Assembly (NCBI RefSeq): GCF_965638725.1
Contig: NC_134975.1
Coordinates: 1,996,179-2,060,178 of the forward strand
Source: Aptenodytes patagonicus
Taxonomy: Eukaryota > Chordata > Aves > Sphenisciformes > Spheniscidae
DNA length: 64,000 nt
Direction of reading: 5' to 3'
Below the pieces are notes generated by a model that made no database searches, was not told where the DNA came from, and saw only the letters and a program-made list of their open reading frames with translations. Made by a program: the position numbers and the translations under genes. Shown piece by piece: positions 368 through 28,000 of this stretch. The first letter of the stretch is position 1, and each line of letters starts with the position of its first letter.

Positions 368-3300
368 CTAGGTGAAGGACCAGAGCTGGTGGGGGTCCAC
401 TGGGTCGCAGGGAACCATCGCCGGGTGCTTCCCTCGTGCCGTCAAGCACGTACCGGAGGCTGGGTTTTTAATCAGCCGATCCTGCCGAAAATAAAGATGG
501 CATCAGCGATACCCGGTGGGATGAAGAAAGGATGAGGCTGAGGGGAAGCAGCAGAGAAGCATCATCGTGGTGGGGATGATGCCACCATCCCCTTGGGTGA
601 TTCCTGGGGTGGAGATGCATCTCCTCACCTGCGCCAGGTCCCACTCCTCGCTGGCTGGCACCCGGCCAGGCTTCCCTCGGTACTGGCAGTCACCCAGCTC
701 GGCCGAGCCCGAGCCCGCCCGCAGGCAGAGCTCCTTCCCGATGTTGTGCCGCAGCTCCCGCTGGCTTGTGTACTCAAAATACTGGGGGGCAAGACCAGAG
801 AGGGGACGTCATGCTGCCGTGCCCTGAGAAACTAACCCCCAGGGGAAAAACAGGGGGGTTGCAGGAGGGGAAAATGCTGGGGGTTGATGGGTGCCCACCT
901 GGTTGCCCCCCATCCCGTGGCAGGGGTACATGATGAGTGGTTTCCCACCGTGGTTGTTCTCACCGACGTCCAGGCAGCTCTTGGTGCCCTCGTTTTTTAT
1001 CTGCGGGGGACGGGGGACGAAAGGGGCAGGGGGGTGAGCTGGGCTCCGAGGGCTCGGGGTAGGGACCCGCCTTGGGTTTGGGCTTTGCGGGGCACTTTAA
1101 TTATTGCTGTACAAACACGATCCTGGTACTAGGCGCTGTGTCCGGGTCCCTTGTCCTTTCCAGGACGCGAGGAATGCCCGCACCAATGCTTCCGTCCCAC
1201 CGAGTCAAAGGTGAGAGCCGCCCAGGACGAGGTTTCAGGAAACAAAGGTGAATTAAAACCTGGACGGGAGCCAGCGCCCGGCCCTCGCTGCATCCAACGG
1301 CTGCTTTCACATTGCCCCGGCCGAGGAGGGTTGGACTCAGACCCCAACACCCGGCTTGGAGGAAAGGGGCTTTTTTTGGCAGCTCCATCCTCGGGGACGG
1401 AGCCGGCGCTCTGCATCTTGCCTGTTCCCAGCTCGGTTTTTCAAGTCCATCCTGTGCATGCCAATGCCGGCACGGTGCTTGTGGAAGCTTTCAGCTCTTT
1501 CGCCCGATTTAACCTGATGCCACGTCCCCGCGGGTCCCCCACCCCGTAAACTCGCCCCAAACCAGCTCTGCCAGATTCCAGCTCTTTTGCCGTCAGCCAG
1601 AGCCCGAACCGGCCCCACCAGCCAGTGACAGACCTGGTGACGGACGCGGCTGCACCAAAACCCTCCAGCACGCTGGTTTAAATGCAAAACCCCCAAACCC
1701 AACCTTTTGGGGACTTCACTGCCGTGGCTATTTCTAGCCAAGGACTGAGCCCAGCGGGATGCTCCGGGCACCCCCGTGCTTACCGCTCCATAAAAAGTTG
1801 GAGTCAGGTCAGGAACAAACATCTCGGGGTAGACAGTCTGGAGGTACCAGGTGAAGTTCTTGCAGTGGAGCTGCTCCCTCAGCTTGCGCCGGTCTGTAAT
1901 GTCACCATACGTCTTCTATCGACAAAGTCACGTGAGAAAATTAAACTAATCTCTGAAGCCAGCAAGAAAAAAACAAAGAAAACCTTCCTGAGCCAGGGCT
2001 CAGAGCTGAGGGGTCCTCCTGGCTTTGTCATCATCCGTCACAGCGTGCCCAGGACCGAGACCGGTGGTGGGGTCTTGCAAGACATCCCTAGTCCCTGGCA
2101 GGTACCCTCGGGCTCTGGCCGCTCACCGAGAGGGCTGGGACATTTTGGCATCACAGCACGATGTTTTGGTGTTGTAAAAAAAATATTAAAAGTTTTTTTA
2201 AAAAAATCGATGTTTTTCTACTAGAAAACATTATGGCCAAATAGAAAAAGTAAAAAATCGCTTTTTGGCTACATCTTTCCACCTGCATTTGCTTTCCGAT
2301 CTCCAGGCTGAGCCCACCTCCTCCCTCTGCTCGGGCTTGAGCTCCCAGCAGGATCAGGCCCCCCTGGGAGAGCCAGAAGCCCGCCGGCGTGCCCGGTACC
2401 TCTCTGGCCATCTGAGCGGCTTGCTGGTTCCTCCTGTAGAAGATCTCCTTGTAGTCGTCCATCCAGACCTCGGCCAGGCGGACCTGGTTCCTGGAGATGA
2501 CCTGGGTGCCCTTGGGGAAGGTGTGGGGGCTCTTGGAACGGAAGACGTGACCCACGACGGAGCAAGGGATGATCTCGACTTGACCCCCGCACTGCCAGAC
2601 CTACGGGGAGGCAACGCCTGAGATGTGGGGGGTCCAACCCCCCCTGTGCCCCCCAACAAGGAGCATCCCTGAAGACGCCCTTTGAAGATGGCACCGACCC
2701 ATCCTTACCCTGAAGGACATTTCCACGTTCTCGCCCCCCCAGATCTCCATCTGATCGTCGTAGGAGCCGATGTGCTCAAAGTAGGACCTGGAGATGGCAA
2801 AGAGGCCACCGGCAAAGGTTGGGGACCTACAGCGGAGGGAGAAGGGGGGCAAAAACTAGGGTTAAAATAAAAATAGAAAAGCAGAAGTCTGAGTTTTGGG
2901 GACATCGTGGCCCTCATGGTGGGTGTGAGCACTTTGCAGCTGTGTCCCCCCATCTCCCTGCCCCATCCAGCTGTGCCCCAGATGTGGTGGCTTTGGCAGA
3001 GCGGCCAGACCCAGCTGCCAGGAGGGGACGGAGGTGGCGGCGGCAGCATGACACTGAGGGGCCTTGCTGCCAGCTCTCGACTCAAAGCGAAAGGGGGATA
3101 TTGTTACTGAAAACCTATCACTGAAAAGAAGGGGGGAGATTAGAGCTCAGTGGCCGGTGCCCCATTCACTCCTCCGGCTTCTCTAATCTTTTCCATCTGA
3201 TCTTTAGAAGAGGCTGGAACAGAAACTTGCTTTTATTCAGGAAAAATAAAATAAAAAAAAAAAAAGGATTCGCTGAGCCGCTGCGTTCCTGCCGAGCGGA

Positions 3301-6300
3301 GATGAGACGCCTCCGGGAGCCAAACCGCCGGCTCGTGGTAAAAGGGACCTTTATTGGGAGGGGGACGTCTCCCGGGTGACCTCTGCACAAAGCCAGCCCT
3401 GCCGCCGGCCAGGGGATGGGATGCGGACGGGGCCAGGCAGGGCGTCTGGTATCTCCCGGTGGGAGCACCCAGCTTATTGTGGGACACCAACGGAAAAGTG
3501 CAGCAGGAAAACCTGTTCAGGGTTCCTCTGCATGAAAATAAGGGGGTAAAAATAGGGTTTTCGGTGCAGTCCGATCCACAGGTGACATATTCTTGCTGCT
3601 GTGCCAGCACAGGTGCCCACCCTGCGCCCAGGTAGCTGGGTATCCAAGAGCGAGAAGATGCAAGACAGCGATTAAAACCTTAACGAGAGACTTTGCAGGA
3701 GCGGAGAGATGGCTGGAGACAATTCAAAGGTGTTTTTGCAAAAGGTCCTTTATGGCTCCACATTTGCCAAACCCCAGGGGAGGTTTCTCCTCTGCCAGCC
3801 CCACGGCTCTGACCGTGCCTGAGCATCCTCTCCCGGGCACAAGCCACCCAAGATCCCTCAAGCCAAGCATCCCACAAGGGAAGCTCTTCTGGGAAGGGAC
3901 AGCATCGCCCGCCCAGAGGCACCAAAACCAACAGGAAAAAACCCAATTTGTTGGAAAAAGGAGTGAAAATGACTGGAGGAAGGGCAGTTTCCCAGCACAG
4001 GGCACCCAGCTCTTTAGCACCCCTGGCCGTGCCTCCCTAAGCACCCTGCAGCAGCCACGCACGCTCAGCCGGTTCATTCTGCAGCCTTTGGGTCCGGACA
4101 TGGCGTTCCCAGCGCTCATCCAACCTTTGCTACCATCACACCAGCTCCGAAGTGGATAAAAATCCCTCCCGGCAATGTCTTACTTGATGGGGAAGGTCTC
4201 ATCCTTCCTCCGCTGCTTCTCCTGGGACGGGATGACCTCCCAGCCGAAAGTCAGGCTCCAGTCGAAGTTGCCCCGGCTGTGCTGTTTGCCGTTCTGGACG
4301 GGCTTGGAGAACTCAAAGGTGTTGAGATCGATGGTGGAGATGTCGGGGCTTACGACGGCCGTGGGCTCTTCGGCGATGCGGGATAAGAGGGGCTCCAGCC
4401 AGCCGTGAAAACACTCGCCTGGGACACAGGGAAGGGTTGGCCATTGAGTGGAGACAACTTCACCCCTGCCCCAGCTCCCTGGGGACCCCTGGGAGGTGGG
4501 TACTCACAGTGGGCATCCAGGAAGGTCAGGACCTCCCCGCTGGCCACGCTGGCCCCCAGCAGCCGTGCCGTGATCAGCCCTTTCCTCTCCTCCTGCCGCA
4601 CGACTCGCACGATCTGGAGCTGCTCCACGTAGCGATCCAGCTCGTCCTTCAGATAGTCTGGGGGGGAGGTGGGAAAGAGCAACTGGCTCCATCAGAGAGG
4701 GGAGATGCTGGTTCCTGCGCCCCACCAGCTCACCCTGCTGTCCCCATCCCATTCCTGCCCCTCGCAGGAGCCCCCGCTCAGACCCCGCACCTGGGTTTGG
4801 ATCCGGCCATGGGCTCAGGGAGAGACGGAGCCTCCTTTCCCCCAAAATCCAAGAGGGTTTTTGGCTAAAGAAAGTGGGTTTTGCAAAGGAGCCGGCTACC
4901 CGCCCTGTCTAATCCTCCACCAGAGAGGGATTAGAGGAACAACGGGGTGAGAAGGTCTCGTGCCCTGCGGCTAAAGAGTCACCGGGACCGAGCAAATGAG
5001 CCGTCACCGCGGGAAGGGACAGCTGACAAGGTCTCACCCAGGGAAATTGGGATTTCTCTCCTTCCTTGGCAGATGCAGCCAAGCCAAAAGCTGGGAATGG
5101 CCAAGCGAGAGCTGGGATGTCCGGAGACCCGTCCTGGGAAGGGACCCTAAGTCTCACGAGCATCCGACCCGTGTCTCCACCGCAGCAGGAGCCAAGCTCA
5201 CAGGCAATAAACCCCTGCACTGCCCTGAGGTTTCTGCTCCTTGGGAGCCCGTGCAGACACCGGGAGCAGAAAGGGAGCATTTATCTCTGGGGTGAGGGCA
5301 AAGTCCGCTCCTCTCCAGTGCCCCGACACTGAACCACATCATTAATTTGCTCTGGGTGTAGCTAATGAGGATTGCAGCCTGGCGGGCAAGCTGGCCGGCG
5401 GACGAGGTATTTGCAGGGTGTGGGAGGAGCGCCCGGTTTTAATCCAGGGCTGGGTTAACAGCAGTGCCGGAGAAGGGAAAAACCCCGACGGAGCTCCCAG
5501 GTGGATGCGAAACAACGTGGAAGAACTGTTGGATGCATCCCGGGGTGCTCGGAGACTTGGCATGAGCTGCTTCTCCAAGTGGCTCAGAACTGCTGCTCCC
5601 AGGGATGGAAAAATGCTCGGCATCTCCCTGCATCCCTCTGGTCCCTGCATCCCGCTGGCTCCCGCATTCCACCACAGCTCCCGCATCCCGCCACGGCTCC
5701 CACCCACCATCCGTGCTGGCATCGTCCACCAAGATGATCTCCTTCAGCAGGAGGGCCGGGGAGGTGTGCAGGACGCTGTACACCGTCCGCAGCAGCGTCG
5801 ACCAAGCTTCATTATGGAAGACGATGACGACGCTGGTGGTGGGCAGGGGGGGGCACCGCTTGAATTTCTGGTCGATGCACCTCCGAGAGAGAAAAGCAGA
5901 GATCTAAGCAAGACAGGGCGGGGGGGCACGACAGAAACAAAACAGCCCTCATCCCCCTCCCAAACCCCGCGGCAGGAAAGCGGCTCCCAGCCCTGGCGGC
6001 GCTCAGCTCGTCGCCGCTTTGATTTCAATTGATTTCTACCTCTCCCCCCGCCGCCGGTCGAGTGAATCACATTCCTGCCGGCCGCCCAGCCCCGGTGTCC
6101 CCCTCATTGTCACCGCTACACCTGCTAAGCACGGATAATCGCCTGCCGGCGCGGGGGGGGCCGGTTTCCACACCAGGGCTGGGTTTCTACCTCCTATTCA
6201 AGCCTTTTTTTCCACACCAAAATCCCCCCCATGCCTTCTCCAGCCCACCCCCCCGAGCCGGCAGCGGTTGTGGGGGGGGTCATGCTTTAATCCGGCAGCC

Positions 6301-7216
6301 CATGGCTGGAGGGCAGGCGAGGAAATCTCTCGAGTTTACGCCGCTTCCTTCGCCCCCCCACCCCAGCGGGGTCTGAGGCTGTTCCACTCGGCTAAGAAAA
6401 GAAAAAGTCCGATTACTGGAGCTGACTGAAATAAAAGAGGGAGGGGAGGGAAAGGGGGGGGAAGATGCTGGAGCCACCCGGCTGCAAGCAGGTACGCAGA
6501 GACACAAAGAGCTGCTGCTGGCTTTTGCCCATTGCTGTTAAAAAATAACCCCAAGAGGACAAAAATTTGGGGGGGGGGGGAAGTATTTTTTCAGCCCTTC
6601 CTCCGTTCGATCCCCTGCCAATGCTTGGTGACATCCCGCTCCCGAATCCGCTTTTATTTCCCCTTAAACTTGCCCCCCCCCCCCCCGGGAGCAAATGGAC
6701 CGGCACGGCTCTGGGCGATGGCTCTTACTCCGGCGGGCGGCTGTCGGGTCCCAGTGCTCGCTGGAGGGAGATGCGGTCGCTGGCAAAGGCGTTGAAGCAA
6801 TGCTTCTCGTAACCTCGCTCCTTCTCCTTCGTCTCCTCCGGTGTCCATCGATCCTTCTTGAAGGCTTTGCCGTCGGCTCCGGGGCTGGCGGGGTCTTGGG
6901 GGGGTCTCTCCATCAGCGGCCGAAGCTCGGCCGCCGTGTAGACGCCGGGCAGGCAGGAGCGAGCACTGGGCAGCGGTTCCTCCTGCCGAACTGGAGCTCT
7001 GATCTGCAGCTTCGGCATCGAGTCTCGGATGTTGTTGACCGCCCCCATCATCAGGTCGAGGACTTGGTCCTTGCCTTGGACGATGTTCTTCAACCAGGGT
7101 TCCTCACTCGGGTCCTTGTCCCCCACGTCCTTCTGCAGGATGAAGAGGAAGATGACGAAGACGGCGCCCGCCAAAGCCACCTTCAAGGGGCTGTAGCGTC
7201 TCCGGAAGAGCCTCAT
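368..7216 (-). CDS. GALNT6: Polypeptide N-acetylgalactosaminyltransferase 6
   Basis: Golgi type II membrane enzyme that starts mucin-type O-glycosylation by moving GalNAc from UDP-GalNAc to Ser/Thr. Coding exons in gene order: 7216-6729, 5880-5708, 4657-4508, 4418-4184, 2826-2709, 2600-2400, 1915-1784, 1000-899, 781-629, 481-368. All have GT-AG borders and sum to 1866 nt, giving 621 aa; human GALNT6 is 622 by recall. Seen in the protein: short cytosolic tail ([12 protein letters not shown]), one membrane span at about residues 12-28, a stem, and a GT-A catalytic domain with the metal-binding DAH in LTFLDAHCE and the Gal/GalNAc-T motif [15 protein letters not shown]. The C-terminal ricin-type lectin domain has [25 protein letters not shown] and a final HQLW. 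The start MRLFRRR matches GALNT6, and [11 protein letters not shown] plus [14 protein letters not shown] separate it from most other GALNTs. GALNT3 is the nearest alternative, but the length and stem fit GALNT6 better. No break is seen. Confidence 0.96.
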
Positions 7217-7321
7217 TTTTTTTTCCCGTGTGGTTTCCAGAAGGTCCTCCCTGTGGTGATGGGCGTTTCAGGGACGTGGGGTCTCGGGGTGCTTCATGAC
7301 GATCTGCTCTGCTCCACTAAC
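7217..7321 (-). other. GALNT6: GALNT6 5' untranslated part of the first coding exon
   Basis: Upstream of the ATG at 7216-7214, the minus strand reads back to a good acceptor (CTTCTCCCCAG, ending at 7322). The first coding exon therefore starts at 7321, and at least one noncoding exon lies upstream. An upstream ATG occurs in this leader on the minus strand. Confidence 0.7.
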
Positions 7322-9399
7322 CTGGGGAGAAGGAGAAACACCCGCAGGTTAATTCACAGACTGGATGCACTTCGGGTGCATCCACTTGATATTAATTATA
7401 TTAATATAATATTAATTATATATTAATATAAAGGTCACTCCCTGCAAGGTAGCAAGCGAGACCTGTAAAATCCACTCCCCTCGTGGCCCTTCCAGCCTGT
7501 AAATCCATGCTAAAAATAAACCACCAGGAAAAAGCGAGGTTCGAAAAATGCTGCGAGATGTGCTGGATCTGGCCACCGTGAGCGCCGGACATCCCCAGCA
7601 GTTTCTCCTGTGACCGAGCCAGCTGCTGCAGCATCCCCCCTGCAACCTCCCCATGCACACCGGGAGCATCGTAACGAAGCTAAAATAAAGCTGCAAAATT
7701 TGCCGGAATATTTCTGGCTGCATGGAAAGAGCCTTTCCCCAGGTATTTTTCCTGCCTGCAGCGTTGCTGGGAAGGAAAACACGTGCAAGACCCCGCGGCG
7801 CTTCGGTTTTGGCTGAATTAGAGCAGCAGATTCGGTGTCCGATGCCCTGCCCGGTGCGGCGGCCACTGAGAGCTCAGCACCGGCTACAAATCCTCTGCCG
7901 GGACCCGGCGAAAGCACCGCGACCGGCTGAGCTTTCCCACCGCAAGCAAACCTCCCGCAGCTGCTCTTTGTGAGCCGCTGCCGCCGGAGCATGGACAAGC
8001 TCCGCGGGAGCCATTCACCGGCATCTCCTCCTCCTCCACTTCGGGGGTCCCCCCCCCTTTCTTTATTTCTTTTTTTCTTTTCTTTTTATTGCCTTGGAAA
8101 TGGTGCAGCCCCGGAGCGGAGAAGGGCACCTGCCAGCAACTTCAAGGGCGAAGAAGCTTCGGCTCGTAGAGGAGGAGGGACGAGGCGGTCCCCGGGGTCA
8201 CCGCTTTCAGCACCGTGGGGATCAAAGCTGGCGGCCGGACCACGCTTCACTGCCAAGGGCGCCCATCCGCGAGTTGTGGCGGGACCGGACAGCACTGGCC
8301 CCACGGTGGGGGGGGGGGGGGGGGGGGGAGAGAAGTAAAATTAAGGAAAAAAATAAATCCACCTCAATTTCTGCTCATATCTGATCAAAGATGCTCCCAC
8401 CTCACTTGCGCCCCTGAGCCCCCATGCTTTCGTTGCACGGTGCAAGCTGCTGCCGTGCAAGGAGGCGAGCGGCAAAGAGCAACCCATTTTGGGGAGGAAA
8501 ACCCCATTTCCACTATCTCCGCATCTCTCCGAGAGTCTCCTGCCTGCCGCGTTGCTGTGACCATGTTAACGAAGCACGCTCGTTAGCCGTGCGATGCTAA
8601 TAAACCCCAGGGCGGCACTCGTGCACGCAGGGAGAGGGCACAGGTTTGTGCACAACAGCAGAGCTGCAGCTCCCGAGGGGGCTCCAACCCCAAACCCCCT
8701 CCCCAATCCCTTCCCAAAAAGGGGCCAAAAAGCAAAATAAGAACCAAAAAAATCCCCCAAAAGGGGCTGGGGGGGATTTTGCAACGAGCTGCGGCGCGAG
8801 CTCCTGGCGCACTTGCACTCTCTGCTACCAGCCCTGCAAACCCAGGGGTTGATGCTGCTCCGTCCCACCTAGCCCATCCCGAAAACCCCATGTTGGGATG
8901 GGGCTCGCCCTGCACCCGGGAAAACCAATGCCAAAATGATCAGGTTTGGAAGAGGGGAAAAGGGGTTTTGGTGGGAATTTGGCAGCAGCTGGAGCATCCT
9001 CCGCGGCGCGGGAGGGAGGAATCACAGGGAGAGGCAGAAATTGAGAGACGCTCCCCCGGCAGCCGAGGGGAAAAAAAAAAGGGGGGAAATAAATAAAATA
9101 AAAGCAAATCAACACCGACACGCCACCATGAGCAAACAGGGTGGCTGCGGTCGACTTGGCCGCGCGCTCCACGTGGCAGCGAGCCGGAGGCCACGATTGC
9201 GATGTCGGAAGTGGTCGGGATTGCAAAAAGCCAACAGTGGGAAGCGGGGTGCAATCCTGCACCCCCTGCAACCCCGCCGCTGCCAGGTTTGTTACCGGCG
9301 GTGCCAAAAAGCGGTTGGCAGTGCCGGCGAGATTCGGCTCCTTGTGCCGGAGCATCGCGGCACAGCTCCAGTTTTAGGAACCGGTGATGCCGGGGGGTG
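7322..9399 (-). other. Probable first intron of GALNT6; no gene seen
   Basis: No exon-like reading frame with splice sites is recognised on either strand. The stretch holds an AT-rich tract at 7388-7432, a run of about 20 G at about 8308-8329, and general GC-rich unique sequence. It is assigned to an intron because the leader of the first coding exon is spliced. Confidence 0.5.
7388..7432. repeat. AT-rich palindromic simple repeat
   Basis: About 45 bp made of overlapping ATTAATATA/TATTAAT words that read almost the same on both strands, inside otherwise GC-rich sequence. It is probably a degraded simple repeat with cruciform potential; no function can be read from it. Confidence 0.6.
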
Positions 9400-9659
9400 C
9401 GAGGGGAAGGTGGGTGCTGCTTGGTGCGAAGGGCGGGGTCCCACGGGGCTCCCGCTGTCGAGCCGCTGGCCTTGCCCCGGTTGGGATGAGCCCTCGGGAT
9501 CTCGGACCCACTCCCGGTGGGGGGGGGGGCTGGGACCCCCGGAGACGGGCTGGGTGGCAGCTCTGCCCCGCCGGGGGGTGTGTGTGTGCTGGGATGTCCC
9601 GTGGGGGTAAAAGGGGGCCGGATCCTGCCCACCGCGGTGCATGGAGCCATGCAGCCCCG

Positions 9660-10220
9660 GGGACCCGCTGGGCTGCCGTGGGGGGCTCCGTCCTGGGCCC
9701 CCCTTCCCTGGGGAGGCTCCGTTCCGGGACCCCAGACCCTGCCCCTAGGGGGGACCCCGTCCCGGGACACCCCGGTCCCCCCTTCCCTCGGGGAGGGGCT
9801 CCGCTACCGGGACCCCTCCCGCCCGCACTTCCCCCGGGGGGGAGCTCCGCACCGAGTCCCCCCGGCTCCTCTTTCCCCCGGGGGACTCCGTCCGTGGACC
9901 CCCGGTTCCTTCCCCGAGGGGGCTCCGCATCGTCATCCCCGGACCGGGCTCCGCACCGGGACCCCCCCCCCGGGGACCCCTTCCTCGGGGAGCGGCTCCT
10001 CACCGGGATCCCCCCGGGCCCCTTTCCCCCGGGAGGGGGCGGGGCTCCGTACCGGTGACACCCCGCCCCCCCCCCCCCCCCGACGCCCCTTCCCCCGGGA
10101 GGGGGGGCGTTCCGCACCGGGACCCCACCGGACCCCCTTCCCCCGGGAGGGAGGCGGGGGGAGGGCTGCGTACCGGCCACCCCTTCCCCAGGGGGGGCTC
10201 CGGACCGGTCCCTTCCCCAG
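9660..10220. repeat. Degenerate GC-rich tandem repeat
   Basis: Recurring blocks of the type CTTCCCCCGGGAGGGGG followed by CTCCGCACCGGGACC, about 40-60 bp apart and strongly diverged, fill this part of the CpG island. Each block has a self-complementary CCCCCGGG-type core. The long G and C runs could form quadruplexes or hairpins and are likely to cause assembly errors. Confidence 0.7.
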
Positions 10221-10255
10221 TACGCACGGGCATGCCCGGTGCACCGGCTCTGCGG

Positions 10256-10327
10256 CGGGACCGGGACCGGGACCGGGACCGGGACCGGGACCGGGACCGG
10301 GGCACCCGGGGCACCCGGGGCACCCGG
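10256..10327. repeat. CCGGGA hexamer array followed by a 10-bp array
   Basis: A hexamer (CCGGGA register) repeats about seven to eight times to about 10301. Three copies of the 10-mer GGCACCCGGG follow directly. This is a microsatellite within the CpG island. Confidence 0.85.
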
Positions 10328-10763
10328 CTCGCCCTGCCCTGCCCGCCCCCCGGCAGCCCCCCCCGCTCACCCGGCTCCGCGGCGGCGGCGGACGCGGGGC
10401 CGCAGGTGCCGTCCCGGCGGGGCGGGGCGGGGCGGGGCTGGCGCGCGGGTGGGGCGGGGTCGCCGCCGCCGCCACCTGCCGCCGCCCCGGGGTACAGGTG
10501 CACGGGGCGGCGCCGCCGCGGTCCTAGCGCCGCCCGCCAGGCGAGCGACGCCGCGGTCCTAGCGCCGCCCGCCGGCCCCGAGCCGGCCTCTCGGGGGCGA
10601 CGGCGGCCTGACACAGAGGAACCGGCGGGGACAGGGGGTCTATAGGGGCCGTATGGGTTTGGAACGGGGGGTATCCTGAGTGGCAGGGGCCTATAGGGGC
10701 TATAGGGGCCTGGCACCGTGGTACCGGCGGAGACAGGGGTCTACAGGGGGGCGCAGGGGGGCA

Positions 10764-10962
10764 CAAGGGCCTGGCACTGGGGGTGCTGGGAGCCACAGGG
10801 CCCTATAGAGGCCATAGGGGCTAGAGGGGCCTGGCACTGGGGGTGCTGGGAGCCACAGGGGCCTATAGAGGCCATAGGGGCTAGAGGGGCCTGGCGCTGG
10901 GGGTGCTGGGAGCCACAGGGGCCTATAGAGGCCATAGGGGCCTGACCCCCGGTGTGCTGGGG
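10764..10962. repeat. 60-bp minisatellite, about three copies
   Basis: Units starting near 10780, 10840 and 10900 share GGGGGTGCTGGGAGCCACAG and CCTATAGAGGCCATAGGGG with only a few differences. Shorter related pieces (CTATAGGGGCC) extend left to about 10640 and right to about 11010. The array is non-coding. Confidence 0.85.
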
Positions 10963-11010
10963 ACCAGTAAAGGCCTGGCACTGGGGGTGCTGCCGGGAGC
11001 TATAGGTCCT

Positions 11011-14000
11011 ATACTGCCCGACTGCCGGGCAGCAGGAGAGAGGCACCGGCACGGTGCCAACGCCCTTCCTAGCCACGCTTGTCCCTTAGTTTATGCCATG
11101 TTTGTTGTTGTTATTATTCTCATTTATTAATTATTCCGCGGGCGCTGCGGAGCCTCCTGAGCTTCCCGGCTCGGGGGCAGCGGTTCGCCACAGCTGGGAG
11201 TTTATTTACCATCGTTTTTACCAGGATGCAACAATTGCTGGTAATATTTTTTGCGAGCACACCGGTTGCTATAAATAGACTATCAACACAGGAACTTGCT
11301 GATTATTCCCATCCCTCTGTGTCATCCCTTATTAGTCTGTATCTTCCCGTTGACCTGCCGATGCACCAGCTTGCTGCTCTCCACCAGCCTGCGCTTGGGG
11401 ACGGGGCCGTGATCCCCCCCAGCGTGCGACAAGGCGGCAGCCCCGAATGGTGAGCCCCCCGCTCCGAGCGCCCCATCTCCCGCCTCCTCAAGACCCGTGT
11501 TTAACACTAGATGGTGGTGTCTTCATGGAGTTTCGGCCTGAGGATCAGCAGCTGTTAGTCACAGCACAAAATCTCCCCGGAAAAAGCCAGGTGAGATATT
11601 GGTGGTGTGAAAGAGCCGCTCAAAGCCCCTTCAGGTATGAGCCCTTTGGCAGGGGATTCCTGTGCTTGCAAGGAAGGGCACGGGCAGCCCCCAAACCCCC
11701 TGTGCACCCGAAGAGAGGCTGCGGTCGAGACGCGCAGGAGGGCGACGGGGAAAACCCCAGCGGCTTCTCCAGAATCCCGGAGGAACGAGCCCTGGGAGGG
11801 TTTTAATCACCCATCTGAGGATTTTGCCTTGGCTCCTGCGCTGTACGGAGGATTTGGGGGATTTGACCTGCGGCAGAGTGAGTATTAATTTGGATTATTG
11901 GGATATTAGCTTGAATATTAGCTGCCTTACAGGGGATAAGTCGGGCAGGGCTCCAGGGCACCGCAGACGCACAAATACCCAGCAGCCTCCATGTTAAAGC
12001 ACTAACGAGTCGCTAGAGAAAGGCGGGGGGAAACTGAGTCACAGAAAAGGCGCCTGCCTCACCCAGCACGGTGCAGAGAGGAGCCAACACTCACCCGCCA
12101 TGAGGCCACCCTTGGCCTTCATAATCGTCTCTTGTGCTTTTCAGAGCTAAATTTAAACCCTGGGTTTGCGCAGCGGCTGCCTGTAATTCACTGCCGCTTT
12201 GTTTCCTGCCTCGCTGCCATGCAGAGGTTTCGCTCTTAGCACAAAAACTGAAGGGGAAATTCCCTAACCCAAAGTTTGCTGCTGCTGAACCTTTTTCAGC
12301 TGTGACTCGCCGAGCCCGATGTCGCGCCGCAACCACCCGGCCGGGGGAAGGAGGGCCCCCCGCCAGAGTAAGTGCGCTTCTGCGGAAAATGGAGCTTTTT
12401 TGGCTTCACGGGGTCCATGCCAGGCTGTGTCGCGGGGGACGGGGTGGGGACAGACTTTTCACTGCATTAAACCAGCCCTGTTCCCCGGCACCGAGGGAGA
12501 ACGCGGCTGAAAGCAGGTCCTGCCCCTCCGAGCCGCTCGGTGAACCCCGAGCATCTGATTTCCCCAGGATTTTTGTGTTGTCGGATTGCTTCCTTTAATT
12601 GCAATTTGTGAAATGCTTTTCAGGTTATGCAGGAGATTAAAATCTCCTGGTGCGCCGTCCTCCTAGTGTCACAAAAGTAATTTGGGGGAAATGAAGGAGC
12701 AGTTAACTACTGAAAAAACCAGCAGGGATCGTACAAAATCAATACAGGCTTGCTTGGGAATGACAGCTCCAAATCACACACTTCTTAATAATTAATTGGC
12801 ATAGTTATATATAACTCTCAGACAAAATATATCCTCTTAATCTTTAATTTGATATGTTAGCTATGGAGTTAGCTGCTTTGGAGGATGCAAAATGTTTATC
12901 CTTGGTTTTTAAGAATCAGTGGCACCCGAACAGCCGAAAATACGATGCAGTTACCATCACGGCTTGTTTGTGGCGTGGGAAGTGCAGGAATACCCTGCAC
13001 TGGAAGCGAACCTTACCATTTTGTCTGCAGTTTTCCTTGCGCCGGGTGCGTTTCCTTCAGGCCGGTCGGGATTTCTGCCCTTCGCCCCTACCGGGGAATC
13101 CACATCGCCCCGAGCGACAGAGGAGGCTCCATCAAACCGATCAGCCAAGTCCCTTAATTACAGAGCTGGAGCTTAAATTTGCAGCACTGAGCAGGAGCGA
13201 ACCTGGAAAATGTGACAGGAAGCAAAGCCGATTTGCATGTTTATGCTAATTGAGATGACACAAATCTTTCAAATTAAAACGTACTTTGCAGATGGCTTGC
13301 AGATTTGTACCAAGCTTTGATTTTATTTATTATCTTTCAGACTGGTAATAATTGGTGCAATATGGTAAAACTGGAAAGTCCAATCCACAATACAGCTGTT
13401 AAAGCAAGGAGGAATATGTTGAACACAACGCAGAGAGATTTTTCTTCGTAGTAACAATATTTGGTTAACACATACCGTGTGGGTATGAGCTAGATTTTCA
13501 TTTGTGGGTATTTTTGAGAGCAGAAGGGGCAGCTCGGGGCTGAGCATCTCAAGAAAGGGGAATTGTGCCCCCCCACGCTTGGACATCGTTCCCCGTTTGG
13601 GCTTGTTGTCGGGAGTTTGTTTGCTCTCACACCACTGCACAAAAAATTAGATCCCTTGGTACTAAGTGAATGGGAAATGCAACTTTTTCCAGGTAGATTT
13701 TTCAGTAAATGGGACTTTTTGGTGGTTTGGAGCTGAGCTTGCAGCAGCTGTGGGCTGAGAGGTGGAAAAGCCCAGCTTGGCCGTTCAGTTATCCCCTGAC
13801 TCGGACAGAATCACTTCCTTTTTCAGTTTTTTTCTGTGTAAATTTTAAGAGAACTGGGAGTGCTTCTTTCTTTGCAGTCCCGCATGCATGAGCACGTGGG
13901 ATATCCAGGGATCCTGCAGCACGACCAAGCCTGGTCCTCCCCATCCCACCAGCTCGGGGTAACCTTGGAAGCTCCTCGCTGCCTTTGGATAACACACAGC

Positions 14001-14032
14001 CGGTCATTTCCTCTTGCTTTTCTCCTGATCAG
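11011..14032. other. Intergenic or leader intron of the TANK-like gene
   Basis: No recognised gene. The stretch is largely unique sequence with AT-rich parts at 12.6-12.9 and 13.2-13.5 kb. At 11514-11590 a short open stretch ends in a strong donor (AGCCAG then GTGAGA). It could be a leader exon, but its frame does not join the TANK-like exon. The TANK N-terminal coiled coil was searched for by eye here and not found. Confidence 0.4.
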
Positions 14033-14037
14033 GCACG

Positions 14038-16984
14038 ATGGAGATGGAAGAAATATTCCTCCAGCTCTGTGAGGAGGTCACCAGGCTGCAGGATCTGTGC
14101 CTCAAGCAGGGCAAGCTCCTCCAGAAGCTGATTGCCAGGAAGGGACCCATCCTTGGTAAGCAGCGGGGCCGGGGAGGGTGCACTGAAACTGCAAATCCGG
14201 GCTGACAAGTGTGATTTGAACCTTTGTCCTGATGCTGGCAAGAAATTTGCTGCGGGAAGTGGGGGTAACGTGAAGCTGGTTTAAGGCAGAAACGTGCTCT
14301 GCAACCCGTGCTGGCTGTTGTGGCTTTTTGGCTTCACCTTCTCCATCAAACGCGGAGTAACGTGTGCGTGTGTCTGCTTAGAGTCATGTTAAAACCGCCG
14401 CAGGCGTGCTGCTGCTATTCACACGTCTCACCCCTGGGGAGAGGGGGAAGGAGCATGGGGCAGATGGTACCCATTGCCTAGAGTGGTTTTGGGAAGCAGG
14501 CGTGGCGGTGGAGCCTCCACAGCCTGGAAACTGCCCGGGGAAATGTTCTTGCCCTCCCCAGCAGCCTGCCTGGTTTTCCAAGAAATCTCCCTCCCGGTCC
14601 CCTGGCCATGGTCCATGCACTCGTCTGTCCCCCCCAAGCAGTCACATCACTCCCGCAGGGTTTTGCACGTTGTTCCTGACTTTAGAGGGTGTTTTCTGTG
14701 GTCAGGAGGGATTGGCTCGGGCAAACAGTTGCCATGTGCTGTGAAACCAGCAGCCTCGTGTGCTCCCCACCCCTGTGCTCGCCTCCTTTCCCCGCAGCTC
14801 TGCCGTCTGTGTGACCTTCCTGGGGCTGGCATGCAAATAAATGTCTCCAAACAGGACCTAAACCAAAGCCATTACTGGGATCAGCCTGGCTTTTGGGGAC
14901 GCAGCGATGTCTCAACGTCTCCTAAGGTAGCTAATACTCCTCCGACTCTCAGCCCTCTCCGGCTGTCCTCGGATGCCCTTTCTTCGCTGGTCCCCAGGCT
15001 CGTATTTAATCGAGCAATGGGGATGGGTGAGCTTTGCCAACAAGGAGGTAATGCCCGGTTGTTTCACAAGTGCAAAAGGAAAATGAGGCAATGGGAAGGG
15101 AAAACACAAACGCCATTAAAGTCCCAGGAATGACTGCTCTGGCTTGCTTTCTTTCAAAGATATCCCTGTGTCGCTGCCGATCCAGTGCACGGAGGATATG
15201 CTCACGGAGGAAGGGGAAAGGCCACCGGACAGCCACCAGAAATGCTCAGAGGCCCCGGCATCCGCCGCCTCCGACCCGGAGGGCTCTGCTCATCCCTTGG
15301 CACAGCTGCACGCTGCCGGCACGGTGCCCGGCTTCGATGGCAAGTACCCGCCAAGCGCCGCAAACAGCAATGTCTTCAGCGGTGGAACTGGAGGAGCGGC
15401 TCTCGCTGTAGCTTTTGGCAGCAACAAGGCAGAGAGGAGCGAGAAGGTGGATGTAGACACGTGGCTGAAAACCTGTAGGATGCTTCCTACCGTGAAAACC
15501 TCCAAGGAAGAAGTGAGAGCTTGCTGCAGCCCGCAGGAGTTGGTGGTACCAAGTCCAGTTGTGGGCTCCTTCCTGACTCTTCTGGACCTCTATGAAGTCC
15601 CAGAAGCCCTTCGGAGGGAAGATGCTCCCAGCGAAAGCGCTCTGCCTGCTGAGGCTAAAGTCCCGGTAGAGATCCGAGGACCTGTGAAGGTAAATTGTGA
15701 GGCTGACGGGGATTTTTGTCTGTGACTTTTGCGTGCTTTTCCCAGCATAATGGCATCTGTCAATCTTCAGCACCCTCTCCATCAGCCGTGCTGTAACACA
15801 TGGGAAGCTGTGGCAGAGTGGAGGTTTAGGGTTATGTCCTGAAAAAGTCTCTAGGCACCCAATTCTCTGGTTCCCAGGGGAATTAGGTACATAAAAGCCC
15901 CTGGGATCTGGCTGCCAAGCAGCACCTGATGCACTTTGGGAGAAGTCCCTCCCGTGATCCTTTCTGAGGCATTGAGGAACCCTTGAAGCAGGCGATTCAG
16001 TCTCGGAGGGGAAAACTGTATCAGCCTCCTATGGATCTGCAAATTAAATGAGCTCTTAAATATTTCCTTTATTCTCTCTGATTTATACACCCCCAAAAGG
16101 ATGATTTCCAAATACATCCTAAACTCTGGCCCCTCAGTCCTCCTGGTAAGCCTTCACAATGTGTGTTATGGGTGGGACACCAATCCTGGACTTACTGGTG
16201 AGGGTCCCTATAATGCCAAGCCCATTTCCTTTAATTCCTTCTCCCAAATGAGGCCTGTAAAAATAATTTCATGGCTGCCGTGGCTACATATTCATGGGGA
16301 AAGCTATTGATTTTCAGCCTGGGCTATATTTAGAAGCTAGTTTCTTTTCTTAAAAAGAAGGAGAAGAAAGAAAGAAGTGGAAGTGGTGTCTGTCTGGTAA
16401 AGCCCTAATGTGCCTTATCAGCACTTAAATGATAATGGCACAAAAAGGAAAATACAAATGCACTCCAGTTTGCTTCTTACAAAAGCACTTTTCTCAAGTT
16501 CTGGCTTGGATAGGGATTGTAGCTGCTGAGGGATAAGCGACGGGCGATGGGGGATGCTCAGATGCCATACGGAGACAGGATCCTCCAGTGGATTTTGGCA
16601 AGGATGGAGCGAGGGGGGGAATCGAGCTCCCCCAGACTCCAGCGTGGGGGAGCAGCCCTTAGCCCAGCCTTTCTGTGGGCACAAAAACCCGGTGTCTGCT
16701 TTTGGAGGCTGCGCTTCGGCGTGGCAGACCCCGGGATGGAGGCTAGAGGCAGCTGGGGGTTGGAAAAAAGGCTGCCTCTGCTGTTCCCACTGACCGCTTT
16801 TCCCCTTCGCTCCTCGCAGACATCCTGGATGCCGGGCTGGATGCTGGAGGACGGTACGCTCGGGCAAGGTGCCGTCCTCGCCTCCGAGGATGCTCAGGCT
16901 TGTGACATTTGCCAGGAGATTTTCCCATTGGACGCGGCGGGCCAAGCCGACTATTTAAAGCACGTCTTAGCGCATATGAAGTAG
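14038..16984 (+). CDS. TANK-like adaptor (TRAF/TBK1-binding, UBZ-type zinc finger)
   Basis: Exons 14038-14155, 15160-15689 and 16820-16984 have GT-AG borders, sum to 813 nt and give 270 aa. Residues 4-34 (EIFLQLCEEVTRLQ...) match, by recall, the helical TBK1/IKKe-binding segment of TANK. Residues 46-51 are PIQCTE, like the TRAF2/TRAF3-binding PIQCTD of TANK, with the same DIP..S.P lead-in. FDGKYPP at 98-104 resembles FNVKFPP of TANK. C244, C247, H264 and H268 keep TANK's C-x2-C-x16-H-x3-H finger. TANK is a scaffold that couples TRAFs to TBK1/IKKe and tempers innate immune signalling; the same role here is inference. The ATG has A at -3 and G at +4, but an acceptor (TGATCAG, ending at 14032) lies just upstream. 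The exon is thus spliced, and an upstream coding exon in phase 1 is possible. TANK's first 140 or so residues (coiled coil) are not seen. SLC4A8 follows on the same strand. Confidence 0.82.
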
Positions 16985-22035: not shown

Positions 22036-25000
22036 ATGCCCGCCGGCAGCAACGAGCCCGATGGGATCCTCAGCTACCAGGTGGGGGGCAGCGGCACCGG
22101 GGGGGGGGATGCCCGGTACCCCCGGGCGGGCCGTGCCGCCGGTGCGGCCGGAGGATGCTCCGCGGCTGCTCACTGCGGCATTTCCGATGGCTGGGGGTGG
22201 GGTGGGGACAGGGGGAGCAGGGGGGTGGGGGTGCATGGGGGAGGCAAGGCGTCTACAAGGGGGGGGTGCGTGGGGAGGCTGTAAGGGGCGTGCAAAGGGG
22301 GGGGGGGAAGGGCATCTGCAAGGTGGGGAGGTGTAAGGGGGGCAGTAGGTGTCTGTAAAATGGGGTGCCGGGGGTGTGCAAGGGGGTGCCAGGCCTCTGA
22401 AGGGGGGTGCAAGGCATCAGCAAGGCATCTGCAAGGCGGAAGGGCGGGGGCGCAAAGTGGGGGGGGCAAGGGGTGCTCAAGGTGGGTGCAGGAGGGATGC
22501 GAGGAGGGGAGGAAGGCACCTGCGTGATGCCTGTTGGGGGGCTCCCCGCTAGGCCCCCCTTGTCCCCTCCTCTGCATCAAGATGTGACCCCCTGGTGATG
22601 CTGCGGGCCCTTTGGAGGGGAGACAAAGGCCACTGTCCCCACAGAGCCCCACACCACCCACTCACCGGGTGGGGGGGCTCAGCTATTGTCCCCACCAGGT
22701 GCTTGCATGGATGCACCTGGTGCTGGAGTGCAGCCAGGAGGCAGCCGGGTGGTCCCCCCTCTTTCAGCATCTCCTTGTCCCAGGGAGGGCCTGCCCGACC
22801 CCCCGCTGCGCCCATGGGATCCGGCTGGAGGAGCTACTCTTGGTGGCAAATGAGAGGTGGGGAATTAATTAATCTGCCCTGAAATTACAGCTCACAGGAA
22901 AGAGTGAAAGGAATTTACATCTCCCCCAGCAAGGGATAACAGTCATGTCCTAGTGATGCTCGGCTGTGACCTGCGTCACCCCCTCGCAGCCCCACTTTGG
23001 GGCTCCAGAGACCTGTCCCCTCCTGTTGCAAGCACCCGGGTCCAGTCCCTGTCACGGCTCAAATCCTGGCCCAGGAGCCGGAGGGGTCCCCCCAGGGGGA
23101 CAGTGCTGACCCCCACGATAGCAAAGGAGGGAGCTGTGGGGACAGTGGCTTTTTTCCAGGCAGGATGGAGATGGAGAGGGGCGAGGAGGGGGTGTCCTGC
23201 TCCACCACCAGAGCGGACCCCCAGTTTGTCCCCATGCACGCTGTCACCCTCATCCCATAATAACACTGGGATCAGTGTTATTAATTACACTTTGGGCAAG
23301 ATTAATTACATTAATCCTCCCTCCTGCTGCCGGTAGGCGGTCCTGCTTGCGTGTGATGGGACGAGGGGGCTGGGATGCGAGGTTTGCCTGCTCGTGCAAT
23401 GCTTTCGGCCTCCCCCGGCACCAGGAGGACTCAAAGCTGGACCTGAATCTCTGCTTTGTGCTTTTCCTCACCCTCAATTACACCAAAGCTTCCCCAGGGA
23501 AAGATTTTTCTTTCTTGGCCAGAGGAGTTGCACTGAGACAGGTAAACTGAGGCAGAACACTCAAAAATCCCTCACTTTCCCACTGGGACAAAAAAATTGC
23601 AGTAAAGTAATAATTTGGAGAAGTTTTCTTGAGATGGACACGGGAAGAGGAGGCACCGAGCTTGTGACATGAAGGGGTTCGCTGTAGCCGTGTCGAAAAA
23701 GACCTTCCTCCTTTGCTCCAGCGATTTCTGATTTCATTTTTACAAGCAATAATTACTTGCAGCCTCCCAACAAAACAAGCTTCGAAGCAGCCAGCCGGAG
23801 CTTTGTGCTTAGGACACAGTGAAGTGGAAGAAGTCTGGCTGCTCCAAAACTCAAAAGTGAGCGATGCAAAGCTCGGCGTCCCCTTGCCCAGCCCGGTTTC
23901 GACGATTTGATGTTTTGGTACCAGCGAGTGCTGGTACACAACCTGGGATGGGATAACCTGCTTTCCGGAGGCCTCTCTCCTTCCTGCTCCATCCTATCCC
24001 AAGCCCACGGGTCCACAAATCCCGCAGCCTATGAAATCCTGAACTCCTCCAGCAATTTCCTCAATGAAACAACCACTCCGAGTCCATCCGAGTGGCTTAG
24101 GCGGGACCGAGTGAGTTTTGAGTGGGGCCGTTTCCTTCGGTGGCCTCTCCGTGCAAGGCTTGCCGCGATTTTGGGGATGCTGCAATGGCCGGGGAAGGGC
24201 GATGGGATGCTCGGAGCATCTTGCCGCGGACCCGGAGGTGCCCACTTGTCCCGTTTCCTCCTATGTTTGCTCCTGAAGCTTTAATACTAAATAACAAACA
24301 AGCAGCGGGGATCCGAGCTTGGATCACGCTGGGATTTTAAGTGCTTAGACCTCGGTGTCACCTTCCTTCGCCATGTTATTTTACACGCCGTGTCGCCTTT
24401 CAGGGCAAGCCGGGCAGTTCACCTTTGTGCCGAGCGGTGCCGGGGAGGAAGTTGACTAGAGCAAATGAATTTGCAGCATGGAAATGACGGATTAGCTCAG
24501 CTGGGAAACTAAAGTAGAGCTGGAGATAGCTGGAGGAAGCGAGGAGAGTAAAAAATGTCGCTTCTCTGGACGTTTCCGTACCGTGCTAGGACTTGGTCTG
24601 GCTAACGAGGGTTTGTTGAAGCACCAAAGGGATGGAGGCCGTGCCAAAGCGAGACCTTCCTGAAACGCCCTGATATTTTCCAGGCAATTTTGATGAAAGT
24701 CGGAGCCGCCCCGTAACGTGTATTTTCACAACGGTTTGCACCTCACTTGTCTTTTGGCAGCTTGTGCTTTCAAATACAGCAAAACGCTGCTTACGCCTTT
24801 CTCCCCGGCAGGGTGCGGCGTTTAGACCCCATTTCTCTCTTCTGGATAGTTTTTGCTCAGAACAGAGCTGGTTTCTCCCCATCCGCTAAGTTTTGCAAGC
24901 GGGAAGAGTTTTGGGGCGCGTGGCTTTAAATAACTGCCTGGATCTGCATCCAGTAGATCCTGATGTCGTAAACGGTCACTTTTTGTGTCTCTGGAGTTGG

Positions 25001-28000
25001 TGCACACTGGGTGCCACTGAGCTCCTCTCGGTGAGGTCTACCCCGGTGTCCCGGGATTGATCTGGAGGTTCAGTTTTCCCCAAGACCGGTGACCGACGTG
25101 AGGATGAACCGGAATGGGGGTTACAAAATGACCCTTCTGGAAGAGTTACAGGTAGCGCGGCCGGGGCTCTGCCCAGGGGCTGATCATCCCCCGGAGAGTG
25201 GGAAAACTCTCCCCGAAATGCCATTGGCACTTCCCCGGAGCGCAGCAGGATGGGCAGGGGGAGATGCTCTGCACCGGGGAGGGCTGCCAGGGGCAGGTTT
25301 AGCGTCGCTGGTCGGTGCAGGGAGGGAAAACGCTTTCTAAGAGAGAAGGAGACTTTCCCCGTGTCACCCGCGGGGCGTTTGAAAGCTGTGGCTCCCAAAT
25401 CGCTCCTTTTATTCCCACTCCGACAGCCACGTAACACGCTCGAGTTTGTGATTTCATTTAAATGGCGATTTCATTCAAATCGCGATTTTATTGAAATTGC
25501 GATTTTAAGCGATTTTATTAAGCCCTTTCCCCCCGTGCCTTGTCCGAGGTTGGGGTTGGGGTTTTTTGGCAAATGCGGAGGGGAGCAGGATGCGTTGCTA
25601 AGAAGGGACGGAGGGTGGCGGAGGCTGTCATCGGAGAGAGGATGGGAAAGCCACAGGCGTGTGATAATCCAGCTGCCGGGTAAGGTGGGCGAGTCCCGGG
25701 AGCTGGCGGGGAGACAGCAACAAGTTGGCTCTGAAATCAGTACTCAGGGACCAGCAAACTCATTTCCAGACAGGAGCATTTGTTCCTCTTGCTCGTCAAA
25801 TTAACCGGTGACTGGGAGGCGTGCGCTTTTCCCAAGCGTCGCTGCCGCATGGCAGCAGATGATGCTATTGAGTCGAAGCAGTAGTTTGGGGGATAAAAAA
25901 GCAGATTTCACGTTAGCGTTTTCAGCCTAAATCATAAGAAGTTATTTATTCTCTTTTTTTTAAGAAGTCTTCATGGTTAATGCATCATGATTAGTACAAC
26001 GGGCAGTGTATGCCAGCGCGGCATTTGAAATTTTACTTGAAAATTACAGCTTTGGTTGTTTTGGGCTGTTTCCCAGTGCACGGTGTAGGTCTTGCTTCTT
26101 GAATGTCGTCCAACAGCCCTGCCGGTTCCCCTAGTTTTCTTGGTGTTTTGCTCTTCTTCAAACTTCAGTTTCAGAACTTGAGCAAGTGGGTGTGAATCTC
26201 GGTGTATTTTTTTTGTTTGAACAATTTTTGGTCGCCGTGATGACGGCAACGGGCTTGCAAAGATGAACCTCAGCAATTCAATAGTCCCAAACCTTCCCCT
26301 TGATGCCTTTAATAAAGGAATAATTTGAAAACCAATGAAAACGAGAGGGTGTTGAGGCATGGCAGAGTTTTTCTTTGCATGGGTGAAAAGATTTTCGTTT
26401 TCGTGGATTAGTTACCGTCCGTGCAGGTGAGGAAGGAGAAACGGAGCAGCGGTGACGTATTTTCCTTAGTATTTAAGACATGCATAGCAATTAAAAGACA
26501 AAGTGCCGCCTAAAGAGGGGAAAAAAAGATACCAAGTGTTTCCAGGGGGCCCTTCTTCAAGCCGCAGTAGCGACTCGGCTGTGAGACGTGGTTGGGTTTT
26601 TATTTCTTTGAACGCAGCCTGGGAATCCCCTTCCCCAGCCCTGGTGGCAGGGGGAAAAGAGAAGCAAAAGGACTTCTTTCTGCTGGCTCCTGTAGTTCTC
26701 CTTCGGCTTTTAAGGCAGAACTGCTCTTCATGCAGCGCCGGCAGTGGTATTTCAGCCGAGGAGGGCATTGGCTCTCAGCCCTTGGCTTTTGCAACGAGAA
26801 AAACGATGTTTTCCATGGAAAGCACGCTTGCACCAAGGGAAGCCCGAGCCTCGCTGGGCCAAAGACGAAGCTTCGCCCTTGCAGGTTCTTGAGGGCCTTG
26901 GGAGGTTGTTGGTGGCCATGTCCTGTGGCCAGGTGCCATCTAGTGAGTCCTGCAGGTATCACGTTTGGAGACTGAAACTTGCTGTGATCAAAAGTGCAGT
27001 TTTGGGTCGGTTTTTTTGCAGTTTGGAAATCCCTTTTTTTTTCTTTTCGAAAGGAACCACAAGAAGAAAGCAGGAGGGTTTTTTTTTTTGTCTGAAACAA
27101 TCAGCCCTCTCCTCCTGTGGTGAATACTTCCAGACACACATTATATACAATATAGGTGATGTTATGGGCTGTTTTATTTGGGTATGGGAAGAAAAAGCTC
27201 CTACAAGTCCGTGTTTTTAGGGCCGTGCCACGAGGAGGAGGAGGAGGAGGCACGCAGAGGCGAGATGCTCGTGGACTCGCGTGGACGCAGGGGTGGATGA
27301 TGGCCGGGAGGACGTACGGGAGCTCGACACACGCAGCCCCAACTTTTACCTTCTTCTCATTGCTAAACAGAGACATGACGAAGAGGCAGTGATTGACCAG
27401 GGAAGAACGAGTAACGTTGTCAATATTCACTATGAGAAGGAGGAGTTGGAAGGTGAGTCTCTGCTGAGATCCTGGCAGAGGGGCCAGCAGCCCAGGGCGT
27501 TTTCCCGTAGCACAAAGTCCCTACAACGTCCCTTGCTTGGTGTCACATCGTGTGCAGCAAAACGTGCCGTGCTTCTTGATAAAGCAGCACAGTTATTTTG
27601 ACATTTTTTCTTATTACGGCTCTTAAACAGAGGGAGAAAGCCCCCGCGGAGGCCACGGTGTGAGTTTTAGCCGTGGGCCTGGGTAATTCATGGCTTGTTT
27701 TCTCACAGAAGCTGCTTCTGACTTGGAGAGGTCAGGAGAAGAATTGGATGGCTGCAGATGTGGGGCTGTGATTTTCTTTTTTTTTCCTGGGCTCCGGCCG
27801 CGTCAACCATTGCCACAATGATGAAAGTGCTGCAAATGCTGCTTTTTCGCAGGACACCGGACCCTGTACGTGGGTGTTCGGATGCCCCTGGTGAGGCAAA
27901 GCCACCGGCATCACCGACCCCACAGCCAAAAGCATCGGAAACGGGAGCGCGAGAAGGACTCTGCCCCGACGGAGCAGGGCTACCACTGTAAGTCCCGCCA

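Follow-up and report, generated by a model that had tools for sequence, protein, structure and literature searches.

The 64,000-nucleotide stretch of the Aptenodytes patagonicus genome analysed here (the window; C27:1996179-2060178 within a 1.35-Gb genome) holds a short TANK-like gene between two neighbours. To the left, on the reverse strand, are GALNT exons (812-2855), with the Pfam domains Glyco_transf_7C and Ricin_B_lectin recognised on two of three pieces. Their best sequence match in the PDB is 6s22, a polypeptide GalNAc-transferase, and we take this neighbour to be GALNT6. To the right, on the forward strand, are the exons of SLC4A8 (22048-37113), found by tblastn with human SLC4A8 (22048-34046) and by a Pfam search of the genome (36853-37113). 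These exons carry Band_3_cyto and HCO3_cotransp. Two NDCBE constructs together matched them with 205 + 199 bits, compared with 368 for NBCn1 and 341 for NCBE. A first-pass annotation, made from the letters of the window, had named the same two flanks, and both are borne out.

Most of SLC4A8 is also amplified in tandem elsewhere in this genome, where window positions 23701-46618 are matched on contigs C42, C43, C47 and C51. Among the 83 matches listed, 75 are to one exon, with an identical score, on these four small contigs; the figure is a lower bound, taken from the best 79 of 1130 candidates. Over 60 kb of C43 the spacing of the units is 21.8 or 25.1 kb, and the units are mutually 99.4-99.6% alike. 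They match the window at 90-99% (98% for the largest piece), and none of the 13 exons that were compared within one unit has an indel. The TANK-like gene is absent from the array unit. Our guess is that the array lies on a sex chromosome or a microchromosome.

The TANK-like gene is read from the forward strand in three exons. The first (14033-14155) contains the ATG at 14038 and a helix of the TBK1-binding type, and ends in phase 1. The second (15160-15689) runs from PIQCTE to VEIRGPVK and ends in phase 0; its borders and phases are those of the bird's own TANK. The last coding exon (16820-16984) holds TSWMPGW, a finger and the stop codon at 16982-16984. Together they make 813 nt and encode 270 residues with no internal stop. 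All splice sites are GT-AG: G|GTAAGC after 14155 and AAAG|AT before 15160 in the first intron, AAG|GTAAAT after 15689 and CGCAG|AC before 16820 in the last. Splice sites, open frame and stop thus agree to the base with the exon coordinates first proposed. An optional 5' coding exon of 49 nt (12319-12367, forward strand), which the first reading had missed, has the donor GTAAGT, ends in phase 1 and reads on in frame into the exon that starts at 14033. It places MSRRNHPAGGRRAPRQST ahead of MEMEE to give a 288-residue form, and the bird models P0001, P0020 and P0026 start in a similar way. One relative, P0002, is a full-length protein of 269 residues whose contig is no longer than 1385 bases. The introns of the three-exon model sum to 2134 nt in the window, and if those of P0002 are of about that length, its contig could not hold the gene with its introns, and the sequence would probably stem from a spliced transcript.

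The TBK1-binding helix is the domain shared by TANK, NAP1 (AZI2) and SINTBAD (TBKBP1). In Pfam this domain (TBD, PF12845) matches residues 2-52 of the 270-residue form with an E-value of 1.3e-8 and 34.9 bits, where the cut-off is 27, and the 288-residue form with 35.8 bits. Chance open frames are ruled out by this match above the cut-off and by a goshawk protein that is 89% identical over the whole length. A sequence search with the whole family found the solved NAP1 domain as a weak match (E 0.059), and the 270-residue protein alone found no related structure in a sequence search of solved structures. AlphaFold models of the shark and crane orthologues have mean pLDDT values of 51 and 54 and are confident only in the TBD helix; in the crane model the helix spans residues 2-33, and the block means of pLDDT are 89-97 over residues 1-30.

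NAP1 binds TBK1 through nine layers of side chains in a 2:2 bundle; binding is reduced or lost with the substitutions L226Q, L233Q and L244Q, and L247 occupies a pocket (PMC5027247). These four leucines correspond to L10, L17, L28 and L31 of the window protein; the numbering was placed on AZI2, and structure 5ep6 yields the same register. All four are invariant across the 18 bird and crocodilian rows of alignment A1. A wider motif census took in only rows flagged for the TBD, including P0065, a false flag, and leaving out P0083. In it all four positions are leucine in 46 of 48 bird or unnamed rows (the exceptions being the false flag and one Met), in 2/2 crocodilian, 2/2 parrot-type, 5/5 turtle and 9/9 amphibian rows and the single coelacanth, in 1/3 ray-finned fishes and in 0/10 sharks and rays. 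The third leucine is Ile in all ten flagged shark and ray rows and also in P0083, and the fourth differs in two of the three ray-finned fishes.

Downstream of the helix lie further motifs of TANK. PIQCTE (15177-15194, forward strand), read from the translation, is of the TRAF2/3 type, and none of the 18 sequences of A1 varies at its P, Q, C or T; in TANK, PIQCT is the contact for TRAF2 and TRAF3. In the census, 47 of 48 bird or unnamed rows, 2/2 crocodilian, 2/2 parrot-type, 4/5 turtle, 8/9 amphibian, 1/1 coelacanth, 2/3 ray-finned and 10/10 shark and ray rows have the pattern P-[IV]-Q-x-[ST]. FDGKYPP (15333-15353, forward strand) is the counterpart of FNVKFPP in TANK, as placed by alignment of the family profile to human TANK, and FNVKFPP is also the form in the bird's own TANK. 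VEIRGPVK (15666-15689, forward strand), with V-E-I-R-G-P invariant in A1 and VRGPHQ as the counterpart in the bird's own TANK, is the first half of a motif split by the last intron, IRGP-x-x|x-x-W-x-P, whose conservation across the intron had been missed in the first reading. Few stretches of the family are as well conserved as the whole motif (15666-15689 with 16820-16840), to which a stretch of TANK corresponds. It is not known to have a function, and may serve for binding in a way that has so far gone unrecognised.

The finger at the C-terminus (16901-16975, forward strand) has in translation the spacing C-x2-C-x16-H-x3-H, as in sharks, amphibians and the bird's own TANK. Helix, PIQCTE, FxxK[YF]PP motif and finger, all listed by the first-pass annotation, are thus present. 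The finger is the more variable part. In some form it is present in 39/48 bird or unnamed, 0/2 crocodilian, 0/2 parrot-type, 0/5 turtle, 9/9 amphibian, 1/1 coelacanth, 3/3 ray-finned and 8/10 shark and ray rows, some of those without it being partial models. The songbirds in which it is broken or absent include crow, Geospiza, swallow and wheatear, and the two parrot-type proteins without it lack most of the middle exon as well. Proteins in which the finger is lost or broken (P0054, P0055, P0069-P0073, P0058, P0059, P0034, P0047, P0067, P0068) retain the TBD and, for the most part, PIQCT, a pattern suggesting that finger and core function can be separated. Its state in several lineages means either that this part of the mechanism is dispensable or that the gene is weakening in some of them. 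Pfam matched 11 family fingers to zf-C2H2_4 (8/11) and zf-WIZ (7/11), all weakly. A ubiquitin-binding finger of the autophagy-receptor kind is not claimed: one of the 11 matched the Pfam autophagy-receptor finger (E 0.006), compared with the larger numbers for these two classes. Human TANK matched the fingers of TAX1BP1 weakly (E 0.03), and a search of solved structures with the finger profile found none of the autophagy-receptor type.

Relatives of this protein are widespread. Protein searches returned 66, 79 and 24 rows, or 102 different homologous proteins, of which 77 are named and 25 are without a name, counted by the names displayed. The named ones come from birds (46), crocodilians (2), turtles (5), amphibians (9), a coelacanth (1), ray-finned fishes (3) and sharks and rays (11); these are counts of proteins and not of species, and some are isoforms or partial. 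A gene confined to birds is ruled out by the homologues in turtles, amphibians, fishes and sharks, and the bird-specific adaptor first suggested was too narrow a description. No mammal or squamate is among the 77 named homologues, in searches that reach relatives sharing short exact words with the query, one of which scored the best 7996 candidates. A penguin protein has 96% identity over 215 residues. The database sequences of the family carry empty or automatic names: 49 of the named proteins are listed as uncharacterized, three of them under the further label zgc:113184, which is found on sawfish, coelacanth and bichir proteins; 18 are TANK or TANK-like and 8 are hypothetical or unnamed. 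Two relatives are misnamed, P0035 (Limosa) as electroneutral sodium bicarbonate exchanger 1 and P0053 (Prinia) as collagen alpha-4(IV) chain-like.

The likeness to TANK extends beyond motifs. The bird's own TANK is on a separate contig (C6), where its exons could be read. The intron between the TBD and middle exons is in phase 1 in both genes (E-IQFSMPIQCT in TANK, D-IPVSLPIQCT in the window gene) and the one between the middle and finger exons is in phase 0 in both (VRGPHQ then LVWQP; IRGPVK then TSWMP). The intron before the TBD exon differs, seemingly phase 2 in TANK versus phase 1 in the window gene. A profile of 19 family members (A3 minus a Danionella fusion, with the window protein included) covers human TANK 139-421 in one alignment of 87 bits; against AZI2 it scored 16 bits (TBD only) and against TBKBP1 4 bits (TBD). 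The family corresponds to TANK from the TBD on, that is, to its C-terminal two thirds without the N-terminal coil.

The surroundings of the four genes are also related. A search of the genome for TBD exons found C6 (TANK), C2 (AZI2) and C20 (TBKBP1), but it did not retrieve the window's own TBD exon, so that weak copies would escape it. TANK, AZI2 and TBKBP1 have T-box exons at distances of 94, 255 and 24 kb, respectively; from human maps these are presumably TBR1, EOMES and TBX21. None of the 49 T-box matches in the genome is on C27, and the other T-box genes are on other contigs. Sodium-channel matches fall without exception (25/25) on C2, C6, C20 and C27: on C27 0.34 Mb from the TANK-like gene, on C2 about 38 Mb from AZI2, on C6 beginning 1.7 Mb from TANK and on C20 beginning 2.8 Mb from TBKBP1. 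SLC4A-type exons occur on C2 (420 kb from AZI2), on C20 (about 1 Mb from TBKBP1) and on C27 (inside the window), as well as on C57 and in the SLC4A8 array. Since C27 (3.1 Mb) and C20 (9.5 Mb) are small, such sharing of paralogues is unlikely by chance, a judgement made without a formal statistic. The simplest reading is that one ancestral region was duplicated twice to give TANK, AZI2, TBKBP1 and the window gene, and that the fourth T-box gene was lost. The first-pass annotation had proposed an ancient duplication together with the GALNT3/6 and SLC4A10/8 pairs. The linkage to SLC4A and GALNT paralogues stands; among the best 79 of 1130 candidates, which were swamped by the array, there was no sign of the SLC4A10 copy that should lie near TANK.

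From these features the window gene is probably a protein-coding fourth member of the TBD family of TBK1 adaptors, a relative of TANK by whole-genome duplication that was left beside SLC4A8 and would tether TBK1 to TRAF proteins. We infer binding to TBK1 and TRAF, and with it an immune function, from the motifs. The N-terminal helix would pack on the C-terminal coiled coil of a TBK1 or IKK-epsilon dimer, two adaptor helices with two kinase helices, as in the solved NAP1 complex. The PIQCT peptide, a few residues downstream, would fill the groove of TRAF2 or TRAF3, and the short, mostly disordered chain would tether the kinase to TRAF complexes. Where it is kept, the finger may contribute a further partner. 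TANK, Sintbad and NAP1 are described as competing for TBK1 (PMC3169550). Conservation of the leucines and PIQCT, with this competition, suggests a TBK1-TRAF tether that would compete with the three known adaptors. The N-terminal coil is lacking and the known adaptors share one TBK1 site, so the protein may displace TANK or NAP1 and tune TBK1 output; it would not recruit the same cargo. The Ile at the third leucine in sharks and rays and the differing fourth leucine in two of three ray-finned fishes count against this explanation, as do the broken or missing finger of several lineages, the weak match to the solved NAP1 domain and the more than one branching order that the tree allows at the base of the short family.

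An alternative that overlaps with the adaptor reading, and that we regard as possible and on balance doubtful, is a short decoy. The gene and partners would be the same, and the protein would occupy TBK1 and TRAF3 without a coil and so damp interferon and NF-kB signalling. The missing coil, together with competition for one TBK1 site, is what such a decoy would have. No N-terminal coil was found by tblastn upstream in the window (3000-14200; best E 0.35). At most 40 residues precede the TBD in 76 of the 80 TBD-bearing proteins returned, and extensions of at least 15 residues gave nothing above zero bits against the N-termini of TANK, AZI2 and TBKBP1. The N-terminal coil of TANK is related to that of AZI2, scoring 24.4 bits where 200 shuffles reached 8.6 at most. 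The conserved TRAF motif, together with a finger present in many species, nevertheless suggests a bridge and not a bare decoy.

It is improbable that the gene is a decaying relic of an old adaptor, with an open frame in this bird and no important function. The protein diverges fast (42-58% identity between the window protein and full-length named songbird proteins), and the repeated losses of the finger and the deletion in the parrot-type proteins would suit a relic. A relic would, however, have lost the open frame, the TBD leucines and PIQCT, which are kept in most rows from birds to sharks.

The age of the gene was assessed with trees. With two TANK sequences, the bird's own and the human one, the two join at 100/100 support, apart from all 27 short proteins; among turtles, crocodilians and birds the branching is strongly supported and agrees with the species tree. 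A topology that joins the bird's own TANK to the whole set of sauropsid short proteins is rejected (p-AU 3e-5). A clade of both TANKs and the sauropsid short proteins is not rejected (p-AU 0.42), so that the base of the short family can branch in more than one way, and trees with a single TANK did not place the root. Both the spread across species and the locus favour an early origin. A recent, bird-specific duplicate or retrocopy of TANK, for which the TANK-like motifs in TANK order might argue and for which the first-pass annotation had asked a tree, can be dismissed: the introns are kept, there are relatives in turtles, amphibians and sharks, and a tree uniting the bird's own TANK with the short proteins of birds has a p-AU of 1e-48 and is rejected. 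The second TANK first proposed is of TANK type and ancient, with TANK itself elsewhere in the genome, and is incomplete in lacking the N-terminal coil.

The textbook set of TBK1 adaptors has three members, which help to set the place and time at which the interferon kinase is activated. What is new here is a putative fourth branch, apparently lost in mammals, judging by its absence from the searches. No paper on the gene was found among the matches listed for titles and abstract starts in the open-licence literature, none with both zgc and 113184 and none with the phrase NF-kappa-B activator-like. Conservation from sharks to birds spans more than 400 million years. With the gene kept over this range and no mammal found, part of the antiviral TBK1 pathway outside mammals may have been overlooked. 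More tentatively, at not far short of an even chance, each copy of the duplicated chromosome gave early jawed vertebrates one TBK1 adaptor, four in all; mammals would use three, and the fourth, a coil-less TANK, would link TRAF3 to TBK1 in a manner no longer found in mammals. If so, models of interferon control drawn from mice and people miss a regulator present in birds, frogs and sharks, and a fourth adaptor would enter accounts of avian, amphibian and fish antiviral signalling. The gene would also be a natural experiment on the roles of the N-terminal coil and finger of TANK.

Set beside the known adaptors, the window gene shares with TANK the TBD, PIQCT, F-x-x-K-[FY]-P-P, IRGP..W.P (VRGP in the bird's TANK) and the C-x2-C-x16-H-x3-H finger, all in one order, as well as the positions and phases of both introns between the TBD, middle and finger exons. 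It differs from TANK in lacking the part equivalent to human residues 1-138, which includes the N-terminal coil, in lying on another contig and in forming a separate clade. AZI2/NAP1 has a TBD with the same four TBK1-contact leucines; unlike the window gene, it has neither PIQCT nor finger, and it has a long N-terminal part with a coil. TBKBP1/SINTBAD has both a TBD and a terminal finger, but the finger is one residue shorter between Cys and His, the middle is proline-rich and the N-terminal part is again long. Database entries called zgc:113184 or 'TANK-like', names that are automatic only, are the relatives of the window gene in other vertebrates.
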